64,000 nucleotides of DNA from Jiangella mangrovi (GTDB lineage: Bacteria > Actinomycetota > Actinomycetes > Jiangellales > Jiangellaceae). The notes beneath the pieces were generated by a model. That model saw only the letters and a list, made by a program, of their open reading frames with translations, was not told the origin of the DNA and searched no databases. Shown here in pieces: positions 39,553 to 45,840 of this stretch (position 1 is the first letter of the stretch; each line of letters begins with the position of its first letter). Made by a program: the position numbers and the translations under genes. The DNA lies in contig NZ_JACHMM010000001.1 of the NCBI RefSeq assembly GCF_014204975.1, positions 4,464,001-4,528,000 on the forward strand, read 5' to 3'.

Positions 39553-40695
39553 TCAGCGGTGGTCGTCGACCCGCTGACCGTCGACCTCGTCGGCCGTGGC
39601 AGCGGCGTCGTCCGCGGACGACGGTGACTCGGAGACCTCGGCCGAGGGCGAACCCGAGCCCGAGGCCGAACCCGCACCCGGGCCCGCGGCCAGGGCACCG
39701 GCCTGGGCGGCCTTGCGCTCGTCGCTGCGCGATTTCAGCAGGCTGAGGATCGTCGTCACGACCAGGGTGCTGAGGATGACCGTCAGGGACAGCCAGATGG
39801 GCACCTCGGGCACGTTGTGGAACGGCTCGCCGCCGTTGATGAACGGCAGGTTGTTCTCGTGCAGCGCGTGCAGCACCAGCTTCACGCCGATGAAGGCGAG
39901 GATGACGGCGAGGCCGGCGGACAGGTAGACGAGCTTCTGGAGCAGTCCGCCGATGAGGAAGTAGAGCTGCCGCAGCCCCATGAGCGCGAAGATGTTCGCC
40001 GTGAAGACGATGAACGCCTCTTGGGTGAGGCCGAAGATCGCCGGGATGGAGTCGACGGCGAACAGCAGGTCGGCCGAGGCGATGGACAGGAAGACGATGA
40101 GCATCGGCGTGTAGAGCCGCTTGCCGTTCTCGCGGATGCGCAGCTTGATGCCGTGGTACTCCTGCGTCATCGGCAGCACCTTCTGGGCGCGGCGGACGAA
40201 CGCGTTCTCGTACTCGTCGTCGTGCTCCTCGTGGTGGACCTGCTGGTTGGCCAGCTTGACGGCGGTGTACACGAGGAACGCGCCGAAGATGTAGAACACC
40301 CAGGCGAACTGGTTGATCAGTGCCGCGCCGAGCAGGATGAACACGCCGCGCAGCACGATGGCCGTCAGGATGCCGAACATCAGCACCGACTGCTGGAACT
40401 GCCGGGGCACCCGGAACTGGGCCATGATGATGACGAAGATGAACAGGTTGTCGACACTGAGGCTGTACTCGGTGAGCCAGCCGGCGAAGAACTCGCCGGA
40501 GGCCTGGCCGTGGCCGACGAAGCCCAGGACGATGCCAAAGACCACCGCCAGGCCGACATAGAAGGCCACCCACAGGCTGGCCTCGCGGATGGACGGGGCG
40601 TGCGGGCGGCGCGTGACGATCAGGAGATCGAGCACGAGCAGCAGGATCAGCACGACGAACGTGCCGATCTCGAACCAGACGGGCAGGTTCAACAC
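39553..40695 (-). CDS. TerC/Alx-family membrane protein (Mn2+ export related)
   Basis: 380 residues, about eight to nine helices. TerC signatures: EYSLSVDNLFIFVIIMAQF (near residue 76) and SIASADLLFAVDSIPAIFG (near 198), each with conserved acidic residues within the membrane. The C-terminal ~60 residues are Ala/Gly/Ser/Pro-rich and probably disordered. TerC/Alx proteins are linked to manganese export or loading of exoenzymes, matching the Mn-type riboswitch in its leader. GTG start at 40695. Confidence 0.93.
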   Translation of the reverse strand: MLNLPVWFEIGTFVVLILLLVLDLLIVTRRPHAPSIREASLWVAFYVGLAVVFGIVLGFVGHGQASGEFFAGWLTEYSLSVDNLFIFVIIMAQFRVPRQFQQSVLMFGILTAIVLRGVFILLGAALINQFAWVFYIFGAFLVYTAVKLANQQVHHEEHDDEYENAFVRRAQKVLPMTQEYHGIKLRIRENGKRLYTPMLIVFLSIASADLLFAVDSIPAIFGLTQEAFIVFTANIFALMGLRQLYFLIGGLLQKLVYLSAGLAVILAFIGVKLVLHALHENNLPFINGGEPFHNVPEVPIWLSLTVILSTLVVTTILSLLKSRSDERKAAQAGALAAGPGAGSASGSGSPSAEVSESPSSADDAAATADEVDGQRVDDHR

Positions 40696-40746
40696 GAAGA
40701 CAGAGTCCTCTCCGGTGAGCTGACCGCACAGCGGACGCTGTGCGCA

Positions 40747-40856
40747 ACCGGAGGTCTCTTCCGCCCGGGTTCACCGGGCCGACGGCACCGGGACGCCCCT
40801 GGTGTAGGGAGCATCCGTGATGACGATGCCACCGCGTCGGGATTACTCCCCTCCAC
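40747..40856 (-). ncRNA. yybP-ykoY manganese riboswitch
   Basis: In the leader of terC. On the minus strand the 5' part reads GGAGGGGAGTA and the 3' part GGAAGAGACCTCC; the GGAGG/CCTCC ends close the aptamer helix, and GGGGAGTA and GAGACC are the two conserved internal-loop halves of yybP-ykoY RNAs. Between them lie at least two helical arms, one ending GGCCCGG/CCGGGC. This class senses Mn2+ and often controls TerC-family genes. A G/C-rich dyad (GCACAGCGTCCGCTGTGC) follows before the start and could form the expression platform. Confidence 0.85.
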
Positions 40857-40865
40857 GCTGATCCC

Positions 40866-40871
40866 AGTATA
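40866..40871 (-). promoter_or_regulatory. -10 box of the terC promoter
   Basis: TATACT on the minus strand, about 10-15 bp before the riboswitch. This is a near-perfect -10 hexamer in a short A/T patch. No good -35 box at the usual distance: TTGCGT is 20 bp and TTGGTG 15 bp upstream. Confidence 0.6.
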
Positions 40872-40942
40872 TTTCACAGCCCCGCCCACCAACGCAATTC
40901 GCCGTCCATCCCGGCGAGTACCCGGTGAATCCCGGGCCATGC

Positions 40943-41902
40943 TCAGAGCACGCCGTTGCGAGCGGCCTGCAGCCCGGCCTGGAACCGGGTCCGGGCTCCG
41001 AGCCGGCCGCTGATCTCGCGGATGCGCCGCTGGACGGTGCGCTGGCTGGCGCCGACGTGCCTGGCGATCGACTGCTCCGTCAGCCCGGCGGCCAGCAGGT
41101 TCAGGATGACGCGGTCGTCGTCGACCTGGCCGTCCTGGTCGCTGGGCGCCAGCCGCAGCGGCATCGCGCGCAGCCAGGTCTCCTCGAACACCTCGGCCAG
41201 GACGTCGAGCAGCCCGCTGGGGTGCACGACGAGCAGCTGGTCGGTGATGAGCGCGCCGGCCTTGGCCGGGAGCATGGCGTACCGGTCGTCGATGAGCAGC
41301 ATGCGGGCCGGCAGCGTCGGCGCGACCCGGGCCTCCTCGCCCGCCGCGATACCGCCGATGAGGTCGGCCAGCCGGCCGGGCAGATCGACGGCGCTCTGCT
41401 CGTAGAGGACGCGGTGGCGGACGCCGGCCCGAAGCAGCTCGACCTCGATGGGGTTCGGCTCGCTGTTGACGACGCCGTAGGGCGGCCGCTCCATGGCTCT
41501 GACCTGCGTGCGGGCGCTGCTGTAGACGTCGACGAGGCGGCGCGCGGTCGCGTCGGAGCCGGTGACGATCTCGACGAGGTCGCCGGGCTCGACGGCGTCG
41601 TGGCGGCGGCGGTGCGTGACGGCGAGCTCGTCGACCAGGGCGCGGCTGCGCTGCAGGTCGCGCTCGCGGGCCGCCAGGGTGTCGGCGAACGCCAGCGCGG
41701 GGTCGACCAGGCGGTACGTCGGAGGCTCCCCCGGCACACGGTCGGCCAGGCCGCGCAGCTCGAGCGCGTCGAGGATCTTCTCGATGACGTCGGGGGGCAC
41801 GCCCGCCGGTCCGAGAGCTGCCGCCGTCGCCGGCCGGGCGCGCTCCAGCAGGGCGAGGTAGACGGTCTGCTCCTCGTCGCTGAGGCCGAGCTGTTCCAGC
41901 AT
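40943..41902 (-). CDS. TrmB/LuxR-type transcriptional regulator
   Basis: 319 residues. An N-terminal TrmB-like winged helix (LEQLGLSDEEQTVYLALLERAR) precedes a phospholipase-D-like effector region, and a LuxR/GerE helix-turn-helix closes the protein (LNLLAAGLTEQSIARHVGASQRTVQRRI). Many actinobacteria have this hybrid. It is divergent from the subtilase at 42052, often its partner. ATG at 41902; upstream in-frame codons unsupported. Ligand unknown. Confidence 0.85.
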   Translation of the reverse strand: MLEQLGLSDEEQTVYLALLERARPATAAALGPAGVPPDVIEKILDALELRGLADRVPGEPPTYRLVDPALAFADTLAARERDLQRSRALVDELAVTHRRRHDAVEPGDLVEIVTGSDATARRLVDVYSSARTQVRAMERPPYGVVNSEPNPIEVELLRAGVRHRVLYEQSAVDLPGRLADLIGGIAAGEEARVAPTLPARMLLIDDRYAMLPAKAGALITDQLLVVHPSGLLDVLAEVFEETWLRAMPLRLAPSDQDGQVDDDRVILNLLAAGLTEQSIARHVGASQRTVQRRIREISGRLGARTRFQAGLQAARNGVL

Positions 41903-42038
41903 GCGCGGCTCCCGCAGGGTCGAGACCGCTGGCCAAAACCTGCCACTGACGGATTTTCGCCAAAGCATAACCCTTGTCACGTTCCGTGAAACTTGTGCAC
42001 GATCCGGACACCGCACCCCCACGTCGCCCCGTATCCCC

Positions 42039-42044
42039 GGAGGG
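42039..42044 (+). promoter_or_regulatory. Shine-Dalgarno deciding a TTG start
   Basis: GGAGGG, 7 nt before the TTG at 42052. This makes that TTG a better start than the GTGs at 41986 or 41995, and it places the signal peptide exactly at the N terminus. Confidence 0.7.
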
Positions 42045-42051
42045 CAGAGCG

Positions 42052-45000
42052 TTGCGCAGGTCCTGGAGAGCGGCCACGGCCGCCGTCGTCCTCACCGGTC
42101 TGGTCGCGCAGGTGATCCCTGCCGCGACCGCCGAACCCGCCGGTCCGGCGGAGTCTCCACCGCTCGCCGTGCCCGCCGGCGGGGTCACCGTCACGCTGAT
42201 CACCGGCGACCGCGTGCACGTCACGACCGCGGCCGACGGGCGGGCGGCGGCCACCGTCGACCCCGCGGCCCGGGCCGACGGGACCGTGCCCGGCTTCCAC
42301 GAGCAGGAGATCGACGGGCATCTGTACGTCGTCCCGGCCGACGTCGCGCCGCTGGTCCCGGACCTGCTGGATCGCGCGTTGTTCGACGTCACGGCGCTGA
42401 TCGGGCAGGGTTACGACGACGCGAGCAGCGACGTGCTGCCGGTCATCGTGGAGGCGACGGCGTCGGCTGCGGCCGCCGCTCGCGGCATTGCGGGACCGCA
42501 GCTGCCCGCCGTCACGCCCACCGACTCGCTGGAGTCGATCGGGGCCGTCGCCGCCGACGTCGACAAGGACGCCGCCGCGGCGCTCGCGGACGCGCTGACC
42601 GGCGCCCGGCCCATGGACTCCCCCGCCGCCCGGACGGCCGCCGCGGCCGCCGGCCCGCTCGCCGGGGTCGAGAAGATCTGGCTGGACCAGACCATGAGCA
42701 CCGTCGACGAGGACAGCGCCCCGCAGGTCGGCGCGCCGGAGGCCTGGGCGGCCGGGTTCACCGGCGACGGCGTCACGGTCGCCGTCCTCGACACCGGCAT
42801 CGACAGCACCCACCCGGACCTGGCCGGCAAGGTCGTCGCCGAGGCGAACTTCAGCGTCTCGGACAGCACGACCGACCGGTACGGGCACGGCACCCACGTC
42901 GCGTCGATCGTGGCCGGCACCGGCGCGGCGTCGGACGGGCAGCGCCGCGGCATCGCCTACGAGGCCGACCTCATGAACGTCAAGGTGCTCGACGACGGCG
43001 GCTCCGGCCCGATGTCCGAGGTCATCGCCGGCATGGAGTGGGCGGTCGACAACGGCGCCGACGTCGTCAACCTCAGCCTGGGCGTGCGCGGCGGCTACAC
43101 CGACGGCACCGACCCGGCCAGCCAGGCGGTGAACGAGCTCAGCGCGGAGTCCGGCGCGCTGTTCGTCATCGCCGCCGGCAACGACGGGCCGGGCGACGGC
43201 ACCGTCACGACCCCGGGCGCGGCCACCAGCGCACTCACCGTCGGCGCCGTCGACAAGCAGAACGGGCTGGCCGGCTTCTCGTCGCGCGGCCCGCGCGCCG
43301 GCGACTTCGCGCTCAAGCCGGACGTGACGGCGCCGGGCGTCGGGATCATCGCGGCGCGGGCGGCCGGCGCCGTCATCGGCACCCCGGTCGGCGACGACTA
43401 CCTGGCGCTGGACGGCACCTCGATGGCGACTCCGCACGTCGCGGGCGCGGCGGCGCTGCTGGCGCAGCAGCGGCCGGAGTGGACCGGGCCGGACCTCAAG
43501 GCGGCACTCGCGTCGACGACGTCGCCGAACGAGGCGCTGACCGTCTACGAGCAGGGCACGGGGCGCATCGACCTCGCCCGCGCCACGTCGCAGCAGGTGG
43601 TCGCGACGACCGGGCCGCTGGACGCCGGCTACTTCCCGTACCCGCAGGACGACGCGCAGCCGGTTACCCGGACGGTCACCTACCACAACACCGGCTCCGC
43701 CCCCGTGGTCCTGTCGCTCGCGGCATCGGTGACGGACGAGGACGGGGCGGCGCCCGCGCCCGGCATGGTCACACTCGGCGCGCCGACGGTGACCGTCCCG
43801 GCCGGCGGGACGGCCGATGCCGCCGTCACCGTCGACCCCGCGGCCGGCGACTACGGCCTGTACGGCGGCAGGCTGGTCGCGACGGGGCCTGGCGGCGTGA
43901 GCGTGCGGACCGCGCTGGGCTTCCACAAGGAGTCCGAGCGCTACGACCTCACGGTCCGCGGGATCGCCCGCGACGGCCGCCCGGCCGGCGGCATCAGCCT
44001 GGTCGACGTGGTCAACGTCGACGACACGTCGGTCTTCGCGGCGACGAGCGTCGGGTTCGTCGACGGCGCGGCGACGCTGCGGGTGCCGCCGGGCCGGTAC
44101 GCGGCCATGGGCTACGTGTTCACCTACGACGAGCCGCACGTGTTCACGACGGAGACGGCGGCGGTGTTCGCGCCGGAGTTCGTCGTCGCGGGCGACACAT
44201 CGGTCACCCTGGACGCCCGCGACACCGTCCCCATCGAGGTGTCGGCGCCCGACCCGGTCGAGGCGACGAACACGATGCTCGCGTGGTGGCGCTCGGACCC
44301 GTGGGGCAAGTCCTACGCGCACTCGTTCTCCGTCGGCGCTCAGGACTCCTTCGCCTCCCCGACCGAGCCGGTCACCGTCGGCGACTTCGAGTACTACACG
44401 CAGTACTCACTGGTGGCGCCGCTGATCCAGGTGCGCACGCTGACGCCCGTCGAGCGGCCGATCGAGGCGACCTACGTGCTGAACTCGGCGCTGCTGGACG
44501 GTGAGTTCGAGCTGCCGATCGTGTACGCCGGGCTGGGCCGGCCGGCGGACTTCGAGGGTGTGGACGTGGACGGTGGCATCGCGCTGATCCAGCGGGGCGA
44601 GATCACCTTCCTCGAGAAGATGCGCAACGCCGAGGCCGCCGGGGCGAAGCTGGTGATGATCTTCAACAACGTGTCCGGCGCGCTGACCATCGGCGGCGAC
44701 CCGTCGACGGTGCCGACGATGGCGATAACCCGCTCCGAGGGCGAGGCACTGCTCGCGCTGCTGGACCAGGGCCCGGTGACGGCGGCGGTGTCGGCGATCA
44801 AGGTCAGCCCGTACCTCTACGACCTCGTGCTGGTCGAGGAGGACGTCGTGCCGCCGTCGCTGGACTACGTCGTCGACGCGTCGAACACCACCCGCGTCGA
44901 CGTCGACTACCACAGCCACGTTCCGGGACAGGGCATCGGCGAGCTGCGGCACAAGTGGCGCCCGTGGGACGCGTTCTCGTTCGGCTTCCTGCGCCGGACG

Positions 45001-45840
45001 ACCGCGCCGCAGTCACGGGTCGAGTACGTGTCGGGCGGCGACACGTCGTGGGCGCAGTACGCGTACGGCGCATCGACGGACGCCGATCCGTTCGGCTTCC
45101 CCATGCTGTCGGCGCCGCGGACGTACGCGGGCGACGGCGAGCGGGTGTCCGACGCGTGGTTCCGGCAGGTGCTGGCGCCGGGCGTGCTGCCGGTCGACTT
45201 CGGGGCGTCGAGCGCGGCGGCCTACCGGTCGGGCGACGAGGTGTCGCTGCGGTTGCTGGAATGGACGGACGGCGCGGGTCACTACGGCGGCCTGGTGCCG
45301 TCCGTGGACACACCGGCGTTCCGGCTGATCGCGGACGGTGCCGAGGTGGCGTCGGGTGGTCAGGCGGTCGGGACGTTCCCGGTGCCGGCGGACTCGTCGT
45401 CGCTGCGGATCGAGCTGGACGTGGCCCGGTCGGCCCCGTGGTGGCTGGCATCGACGGCGACCTCGACGGCGTGGACCGTGCCATCGTCGACCGTCGATGC
45501 GCCGACGACACTCCCCCTGCTGACCGTCGGCTACGGCGTCAACGTGTCGCTGCTGAACGTGGCGGCGAAGCCGGGCGCCCAGTTCGTCGACCTGACCGTC
45601 GGACACCAGCCCGGTGCCGTGGGCGTGGCGCCGGTGGCCGGTGCCTCCGTGTCGGTGTCGTTCGACGACGGCGTCAGCTGGCAGCCCGCGCGGGTGGTGC
45701 CGCGCGGCGGCGGCGAGTTCCGCGCCGTGATCAGCCGGGTGCCCGCCGACGCGACCCACCTGTCGCTGCGGGTCTCGGCCTGGGACGGCGACGGCGGGCG
45801 GATCGAGCAGGTGGTGCTGCGCGCCTACACCCTCGACTGA
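42052..45840 (+). CDS. Large secreted S8 (subtilisin-like) serine peptidase
   Basis: 1262 residues from the TTG at 42052. A signal peptide (basic start, apolar AATAAVVLTGLVAQV, AXA-type end near residue 27) precedes an inhibitor-like propeptide, then the catalytic domain with triad D247 (VAVLDTGID), H279 (YGHGTHVAS) and S457 (DGTSMATPH). A PA (protease-associated) segment lies further along (VDGGIALIQRGEITFLEKMRNA, near 845). The remaining C-terminal ~500 residues are beta-rich, unidentified. The LuxR-type gene upstream is the likely controller. Strong hairpin terminator follows. Confidence 0.93.
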   Translation: MRRSWRAATAAVVLTGLVAQVIPAATAEPAGPAESPPLAVPAGGVTVTLITGDRVHVTTAADGRAAATVDPAARADGTVPGFHEQEIDGHLYVVPADVAPLVPDLLDRALFDVTALIGQGYDDASSDVLPVIVEATASAAAAARGIAGPQLPAVTPTDSLESIGAVAADVDKDAAAALADALTGARPMDSPAARTAAAAAGPLAGVEKIWLDQTMSTVDEDSAPQVGAPEAWAAGFTGDGVTVAVLDTGIDSTHPDLAGKVVAEANFSVSDSTTDRYGHGTHVASIVAGTGAASDGQRRGIAYEADLMNVKVLDDGGSGPMSEVIAGMEWAVDNGADVVNLSLGVRGGYTDGTDPASQAVNELSAESGALFVIAAGNDGPGDGTVTTPGAATSALTVGAVDKQNGLAGFSSRGPRAGDFALKPDVTAPGVGIIAARAAGAVIGTPVGDDYLALDGTSMATPHVAGAAALLAQQRPEWTGPDLKAALASTTSPNEALTVYEQGTGRIDLARATSQQVVATTGPLDAGYFPYPQDDAQPVTRTVTYHNTGSAPVVLSLAASVTDEDGAAPAPGMVTLGAPTVTVPAGGTADAAVTVDPAAGDYGLYGGRLVATGPGGVSVRTALGFHKESERYDLTVRGIARDGRPAGGISLVDVVNVDDTSVFAATSVGFVDGAATLRVPPGRYAAMGYVFTYDEPHVFTTETAAVFAPEFVVAGDTSVTLDARDTVPIEVSAPDPVEATNTMLAWWRSDPWGKSYAHSFSVGAQDSFASPTEPVTVGDFEYYTQYSLVAPLIQVRTLTPVERPIEATYVLNSALLDGEFELPIVYAGLGRPADFEGVDVDGGIALIQRGEITFLEKMRNAEAAGAKLVMIFNNVSGALTIGGDPSTVPTMAITRSEGEALLALLDQGPVTAAVSAIKVSPYLYDLVLVEEDVVPPSLDYVVDASNTTRVDVDYHSHVPGQGIGELRHKWRPWDAFSFGFLRRTTAPQSRVEYVSGGDTSWAQYAYGASTDADPFGFPMLSAPRTYAGDGERVSDAWFRQVLAPGVLPVDFGASSAAAYRSGDEVSLRLLEWTDGAGHYGGLVPSVDTPAFRLIADGAEVASGGQAVGTFPVPADSSSLRIELDVARSAPWWLASTATSTAWTVPSSTVDAPTTLPLLTVGYGVNVSLLNVAAKPGAQFVDLTVGHQPGAVGVAPVAGASVSVSFDDGVSWQPARVVPRGGGEFRAVISRVPADATHLSLRVSAWDGDGGRIEQVVLRAYTLD

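Follow-up and report, generated by a model that had tools for sequence, protein, structure and literature searches.

On the minus strand of the window, the 64,000-nucleotide stretch of DNA analysed here, a TerC-family gene (terC) is preceded directly, on the same strand, by a predicted aptamer of the yybP-ykoY manganese class. The features are collected in table 1. Positions 40857-40871, the putative promoter and the start of the leader, lie outside the aptamer proper. The closest named relatives of this terC are those of Jiangella species; among 60 related genomes, 55 gave a match to its product (30 loci were compared), as did 37 loci in named or binned genomes.

The next same-strand gene upstream (40943-42022, minus) encodes a TrmB-type regulator with weak, below-cut-off GerE/HTH matches near the C-terminus; we saw no link between this gene and terC. 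Also near terC, on the plus strand (41974-45840), is a large subtilase gene, Peptidase_S8 with a PA domain. The TerC proteins of B. subtilis are reported to metalate exported enzymes (PMC10550928); a link of this kind between terC and the subtilase would be conjectural.

Table 1. Features of the terC leader and gene, in window coordinates.
Feature	Position	Strand	Evidence or remark
terC, 380 aa, GTG start	39553-40695	minus	Pfam TerC 171 bits; NCBIfam TIGR03718 R_switched_Alx 377 bits (cut-off 246.4)
Mn2+ riboswitch aptamer (predicted; three-way junction, without P2)	40748-40856	minus	R1 match 79.9 bits, E 1.1e-17; covariation in 93 homologues
P1 5' strand GGAGG	40850-40854	minus	pairs with 40754-40750; helix 1 covaries, one pair GC:70 AU:19 UA:2 GU:1
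L1 5' strand GGAGUA	40844-40849	minus	GGAGTA in 93/93 aligned homologues
P1.2 5' strand AUCC	40840-40843	minus	pairs with GGA(A) 40762-40759; helix 2, two-sided changes in 4/4 pairs
Linker CGACG, 5 nt	40835-40839	minus	occupies the place of hairpin P2 of four-way-junction members
P3.1 5' strand CGGUGGCAUCG	40824-40834	minus	pairs with 40790-40780; helix 3, two-sided changes in 8/11 pairs
L3 UCAUCAC	40817-40823	minus	third residue A40821, predicted Mn2+-contacting adenosine; A in 93/93
P3.2 5' strand GGAUGC	40811-40816	minus	pairs with 40796-40791; helix 4, two-sided changes in 4/5 pairs
P4 hairpin GCCCGG-UGAAC-CCGGGC	40763-40779	minus	helix 5 covaries, 99.3% of cells paired
L1 3' strand GAGA	40755-40758	minus	GAGAC in 91/93 rows of alignment A3; AAGAC in the other two
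P1 3' strand CCUCCGGU, also anti-SD strand	40747-40754	minus	complementary to 40716-40710
Dyad GCACAGC-GTCC-GCTGTGC, spacer hairpin within the OFF-state loop	40726-40743	minus	sequence; in both predicted conformers
terC Shine-Dalgarno region ACCGGAGAGG	40707-40716	minus	sequence; first seven bases paired at 0.86-0.99 in the ligand-free computed fold
-10 hexamer TATACT	40866-40871	minus	sequence; transcript start predicted near 40859

Comparative evidence for the aptamer

Folded as a single sequence the element is unremarkable (z -1.45), so the case for a riboswitch rests on comparison. Upstream of many TerC loci we found a repeated design: GGAGG-GGAGTA, a short C-rich strand, a linker of 3-8 nt, a helix ending in CG-TCA, a hairpin, and then GG(A/G)A-GAGAC-CTCCGG. 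The first leaders were chosen by a pattern that included GGGAGTA and GAGAC, and 28 of 41 distinct leaders were kept; the constancy of GAGAC in these 28 is meaningless, because it was part of their search pattern. Their MAFFT alignment (A1) mis-set the rows with an extra P1.2 base and that of L053. The covariance model R1 was built on alignment A2, which holds 15 of these 28 actinobacterial terC leaders; 13 were left out, the rest being recovered by search. The window and its genus were excluded from training; the genomes holding the contigs of the nearest Jiangella relatives count as that genus. Two rows (L021, L022) come from the window's family. The structure of A2 was set by hand, and A2 was not fitted to it, whereas a later alignment, A3, was fitted.

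Does the hand-set structure hold? RNAalifold, unaided, returned the same P1, P1.2, P3.1 and P3.2 from A2, with 26 pairs of which 14 carry two-sided changes. Over the 15 leaders 95.1% of cells are paired and two-sided changes occur in 16 of 30 pairs, amounting to 69 two-sided cells as against 25.1 in shuffles (0/500). Sliding the partner strand by a single base lowers the paired share to 51-55%.

R1 scores the element in the window at 79.9 bits, the next best place in the 64 kb scoring 14.8 bits. The leader of E. coli alx is matched too (41.4 bits, E 2.2e-7), but E. coli mntP gives no hit at E up to 1. At 60 TerC loci R1 found a copy in 44 and none in 16. The class was sampled with 393 genomes, to which the window's own genus contributes 12; at E 0.001 R1 matched 276 of the 393 and left 117 without a match. 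In a draw across the phylum 35 of 149 genomes were matched, 25 of these outside the class. These counts are those of a model that has no P2 and so favours P2-less copies. The window's own genome contains two clear copies, the one described here and a second at C1:1006292-1006385 (62 bits), and R1 gave no match near its other two TerC paralogues.

Alignment A3 contains 93 copies (92 distinct): 27 from loci fetched for TerC, E. coli alx, and 65 from the RNA search alone. The last were not chosen by the GGGAGTA/GAGAC pattern, although most were drawn from the better matches listed for the class. The paired share rises to 96.6% of cells, two-sided changes are found in 23 of 29 pairs, and two-sided cells number 446, where shuffles that ignore relatedness give 122 (0/500). 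The L1 motif, invariant in the 93, appears as GCAGTA in one (L164) of 21 further rows.

In the window itself the L1 loop GGAGUA/GAGA is flanked by P1 and P1.2, both of which covary, and L3, with its constant third residue, lies between P3.1 and P3.2. The two halves of the L1 loop, GGGGAGTA (40851-40844) and GAGACC (40758-40753), and the closing helix GGAGG/CCTCC (40854-40850 / 40754-40750), all on the minus strand, had been listed in the initial annotation and are present. At the outer position of P1.2 an A faces an A here, and the two are unpaired. There is no P2 and no four-way junction, the linker CGACG alone standing at that place; in all 93 copies, alx included, the linker from P1.2 to P3 measures 3-8 nt (4 nt in 69). 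By motif and residue numbering A40821 is predicted to correspond to A48 of the X. oryzae aptamer, an equation for which we take residue 47 of that aptamer to be a C. In X. oryzae an invariable adenosine is reported to contact Mn2+ through its N7, and the substitution A48U to abolish the stably docked state (PMC6754395).

Why, then, is the element not recognized by the Rfam model of its class? The initial annotation had named a score below threshold with RF00080 as grounds for rejecting a manganese riboswitch. Taken literally, that is the outcome: RF00080 (Rfam 15; a 177-position model named Manganese, gathering threshold 45 bits) gave no match at the gathering threshold over the whole window, nor any at E 10 over 40500-41100. 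However, the model equally finds no match, at E up to 1, in the E. coli alx leader, and the E. coli mntP leader, at 41.6 bits, falls under the cut-off. The first of these is reported as a Mn2+ riboswitch (titles cited in PMC13274385 and PMC10550928) and the second is described as one (PMC11647493). The negative result, therefore, cannot decide the matter. Of the 14 known genomes in the search tool's own control, 2 have an RF00080 match over the cut-off, and its alignment to mntP fits the 177 positions to the mntP type. In a draw equal in size and place to that searched with R1, it matched 8 of 393 genomes, none over the cut-off. Its best match in the window's own genome, a weak one of 20.4 bits, is the second copy at C1:1006292-1006385. 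We take the failure as a property of the model rather than of the riboswitch class; the seed of RF00080 may be in need of alx-type members. Weak matches to RF00810 and RF02471 (14.8 and 11.1 bits, against cut-offs of 68 and 45) were taken as chance.

Relatives, target genes and L3 types

The closest known counterpart is E. coli alx, which shares with the window the GGAGUA of L1, a P1.2 followed by a 5-nt linker into P3, the lack of P2, and a target of the TerC family; its L3 is UCAUUAC where the window has UCAUCAC. It differs in being 127 nt long, with the extra length in P4, in being richer in A/U, and in a match between the P1 3' strand and the SD of only 4 Watson-Crick pairs. Since alx also lacks P2, the window element is alx-like and not a new architecture: P1.2 is joined to P3 by a short linker, L3 is of the UCA type and the target is of the TerC/Alx subfamily.

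The aptamers of E. coli mntP, X. oryzae and L. lactis, in contrast, have P2 and a four-way junction, while sharing L1, L3 with its invariant A, P1, P3 and P4 (PMC6754395, PMC11087558); in this comparison the mntP DNA was read by eye, and the X. oryzae and L. lactis aptamers are represented by their descriptions. The published structures are described as four-way junctions with P1 stacked on P2 and P3 on P4 (PMC11087558). A three-way junction within the yybP-ykoY class is described for the mgtA Mn2+ riboswitch of Streptococcus, which by that description resembles the window element in architecture but serves a P-type ATPase rather than terC (PMC9495176). Actinobacterial members of the class are not new as such, given the yybP-ykoY Rfam hit of 40.9 bits in Corynebacterium pseudotuberculosis contained in a paper of 2013 (PMC3917459). 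In the open-licence literature we found nothing closer on actinobacterial, terC or junction work.

Which genes do the copies precede? Of the 65 found by the RNA search alone, 58 precede terC and 5 gdt1, and 2 were unmatched to either. One of these two is cut off by the end of the sequence compared; the other, a 79.6-bit copy at L123:1434-1531 (minus), precedes a 477-aa open frame with no Pfam or NCBIfam match at E 0.001. Twenty further, mostly weaker copies, picked from the match list of the phylum draw, comprise 9 before terC, 5 before gdt1, 5 before P-type cation ATPase genes (L155, L157, L161, L163, L170) and 1 before a PGPGW gene. UPF0016/MneA proteins and P-type ATPases are listed as the main Mn2+ efflux systems (PMC13274385). 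In Vibrio parahaemolyticus, mneA and terC are both reported to lie behind a yybP-ykoY riboswitch, and RNA-seq coverage to show no drop at the riboswitch (PMC13274385). The initial annotation had named terC as the target and its family as one fitting the class. The gene linkage kept among relatives, the TerC/Alx subfamily assignment (TIGR03718) and the presence of related copies before terC, gdt1 and P-type ATPase genes all speak for both statements.

The type of L3 follows the target. Among the 93 copies it is UCA in 86 of 86 before terC and ACA in 5 of 5 before gdt1. The 20 further copies, read by eye, repeat the pattern: all 9 terC copies and all 5 ATPase copies have UCA, and all 5 gdt1 copies have ACA. 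The second copy of the window's own genome (L074, minus strand) conforms to the same aptamer model, but precedes a gene of the GDT1/UPF0016 family (Pfam 158.7 bits) and has an L3 of ACACACU in place of UCAUCAC. The L3 of E. coli mntP, by eye ACAUACU, is also of the ACA type, which among the copies examined occurs only before gdt1.

The leader start and the proposed switching platform

Where does the leader transcript begin? The initial annotation had pointed to TATACT as a -10 box. The hexamer is present (40871-40866), and in 38 of 92 leaders a TANNNT motif is found at a distance of 3-16 nt ahead of P1, as against 7.8 expected by shuffling (maximum 15 in 200 shuffles); the count covers 92 of the 93 leaders, one having fewer than 60 nt upstream. 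The distances peak at 7-8 nt, and 54 of the 92 leaders have no TANNNT in range. On the other hand, a scan with the sigma-70 consensus found no promoter before the element, and no -35 box was identified. From the enrichment and the peak, many leader transcripts seem to start with P1 or shortly ahead of it.

How might the state of the aptamer be passed to the gene? The heptamer CUCCGGU (40753-40747), made up of most of the P1 3' strand and three further bases, is fully complementary to ACCGGAG (40716-40710) of the Shine-Dalgarno (SD) region, whose end is 14 nt before the GTG. Across 89 leaders, the Watson-Crick run that joins the P1 3' strand to the SD region of the same leader averages 6.65. 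With leaders swapped the figure is 5.59 (sd 0.11), and 0 of 2000 permutations reach 6.65; with shuffled letters it is 3.76. Two AAGAC rows and two without an assigned gene had been dropped from the 93. Of the in-frame candidates, the one with the strongest SD was taken as the start codon, which biases observed and swapped pairs equally towards good SDs. A few of the chosen starts are CTG, and some of those of gdt1 (75-119 nt downstream) may be wrong. The two strands change in step, CCTCCAGGC occurring with GCCTGGAGG (L029), CTCCTGAC with GTCAGGAG (L066), and CTTTCG with CGAAAG (L048, L057). The comparison thus shows the aptamer fold, the conserved core, the gene linkage and an anti-SD complementarity whose two strands vary together across the leaders. 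Runs are short in 15 of the 89 (3 in 5 leaders, 4 in 10). At the short end stand alx (4) and all five gdt1 copies (3-5), and such leaders probably use another platform.

The lowest-energy ligand-free fold of 40690-40859 is the OFF form, at -84.5 kcal/mol, with pair probabilities of 0.77-0.95 in the OFF helix. Forcing P1 gives -78.3 kcal/mol, a cost of about 6, and forcing P1, P1.2 and P3.1 together gives -76.7, a cost of about 8. These energies take no account of tertiary terms or of co-transcriptional order; as modelled, some 6-8 kcal/mol is what binding would have to pay. In the computed ON form part of the SD is still held in a local hairpin. Complementarity, swap test and fold suggest that the P1 3' strand could sequester the SD in the OFF form, its predicted function. 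A precedent of a kind is E. coli mntP, whose ribosome binding site is described as becoming open when Mn2+ is present (PMC11647493).

What role might be played by the dyad between aptamer and gene, which the initial annotation had proposed as the possible expression platform? It is present at 40743-40726, and relatives in Jiangella show paired substitutions in it (e.g. L004 versus L015). However, it forms in both computed states, where it shortens the loop of the OFF helix. The likely switch is the helix between the P1 3' strand and the SD, which encloses the dyad, and not the dyad itself. The dyad was also considered as a terminator and rejected, there being no T run behind it.

Interpretation and alternative readings

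We consider it very likely that the element belongs to the yybP-ykoY class as an alx-like, P2-less Mn2+ riboswitch, and that it turns on the translation of a TerC/Alx-family gene. The class assignment made in the initial annotation has thus found comparative support in the R1 match and in the covariation of the homologues. Without Mn2+ the leader would adopt the OFF fold, in which CUCCGGU is paired with ACCGGAG. Mn2+, bound between L1 (GGAGUA/GAGA) and L3 (UCAUCAC) by way of A40821, would lock the aptamer; P1 (GGAGG/CCUCC) would then form and reclaim the anti-SD strand. The SD would be exposed and terC translated. We infer Mn2+ as the ligand, the direction of switching and the translational level of control; terC is probably controlled at translation.

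Might the same Mn2+ aptamer act instead on transcription, either through Rho or through an antiterminator and a terminator to which the dyad would belong? Other members of the class, in B. subtilis for instance, have intrinsic terminators, and such a platform has been proposed for L. lactis (PMC11647493); the window too offers the dyad and one terminator-like site with a 5-pair stem (40714-40701). But this site lies on the SD, no T run follows the dyad, and the anti-SD complementarity is leader-specific across the group, so that we regard transcriptional control as improbable, though Rho may play some part. We give still less weight, and very little, to the reading in which the scaffold responds to something other than Mn2+, such as a different divalent metal or pH. 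TerC proteins have been linked to tellurite and zinc in Klebsiella. Against this, L1, L3 and the discriminator A are all kept, and the genes behind the copies include terC, gdt1 and those of P-type ATPases, a set of targets that recurs behind the riboswitch in Vibrio, with mneA (UPF0016) and terC (PMC13274385), and in Streptococcus, with a P-type ATPase (PMC9495176). That the likeness is accidental, or that the leader is structured yet binds no ligand, we think hardly credible: the RF00080 result and the unremarkable single-sequence fold would agree with it, but covariation in 93 homologues excludes chance, and a model built on actinobacterial leaders matches E. coli alx.

The Mn2+ riboswitch acting on terC translation, our preferred reading, belongs to a known class. 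The surprise is how common the alx-like type is in actinobacteria, where the Rfam 15 model missed it. If the copies work as we suppose, terC, gdt1 and some of the P-type ATPase genes would lend themselves to testing as a single Mn2+ regulon, and alx-type members would have to be added to RF00080.

A broader proposal can be put forward tentatively, as one we think rather less likely than the reading of the window itself and somewhat short of an even chance. The copies may form a widespread actinobacterial branch of P2-less Mn2+ riboswitches, unseen by the current Rfam model. Its platform would be minimal, a single strand doing duty in P1 and as the anti-SD. Such a branch would have two target-tied L3 dialects, UCA for terC and P-type ATPases and ACA for gdt1, which perhaps set different Mn2+ thresholds for each exporter, and it may also regulate the PGPGW/TIGR02611 gene of L168. 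The literature consulted gives that gene no manganese link; it is a possible additional Mn2+-regulated gene. The observation itself was made once, in an actinobacterium, where a 44.4-bit copy at L168:101-208 precedes a PGPGW/TIGR02611-like membrane protein.
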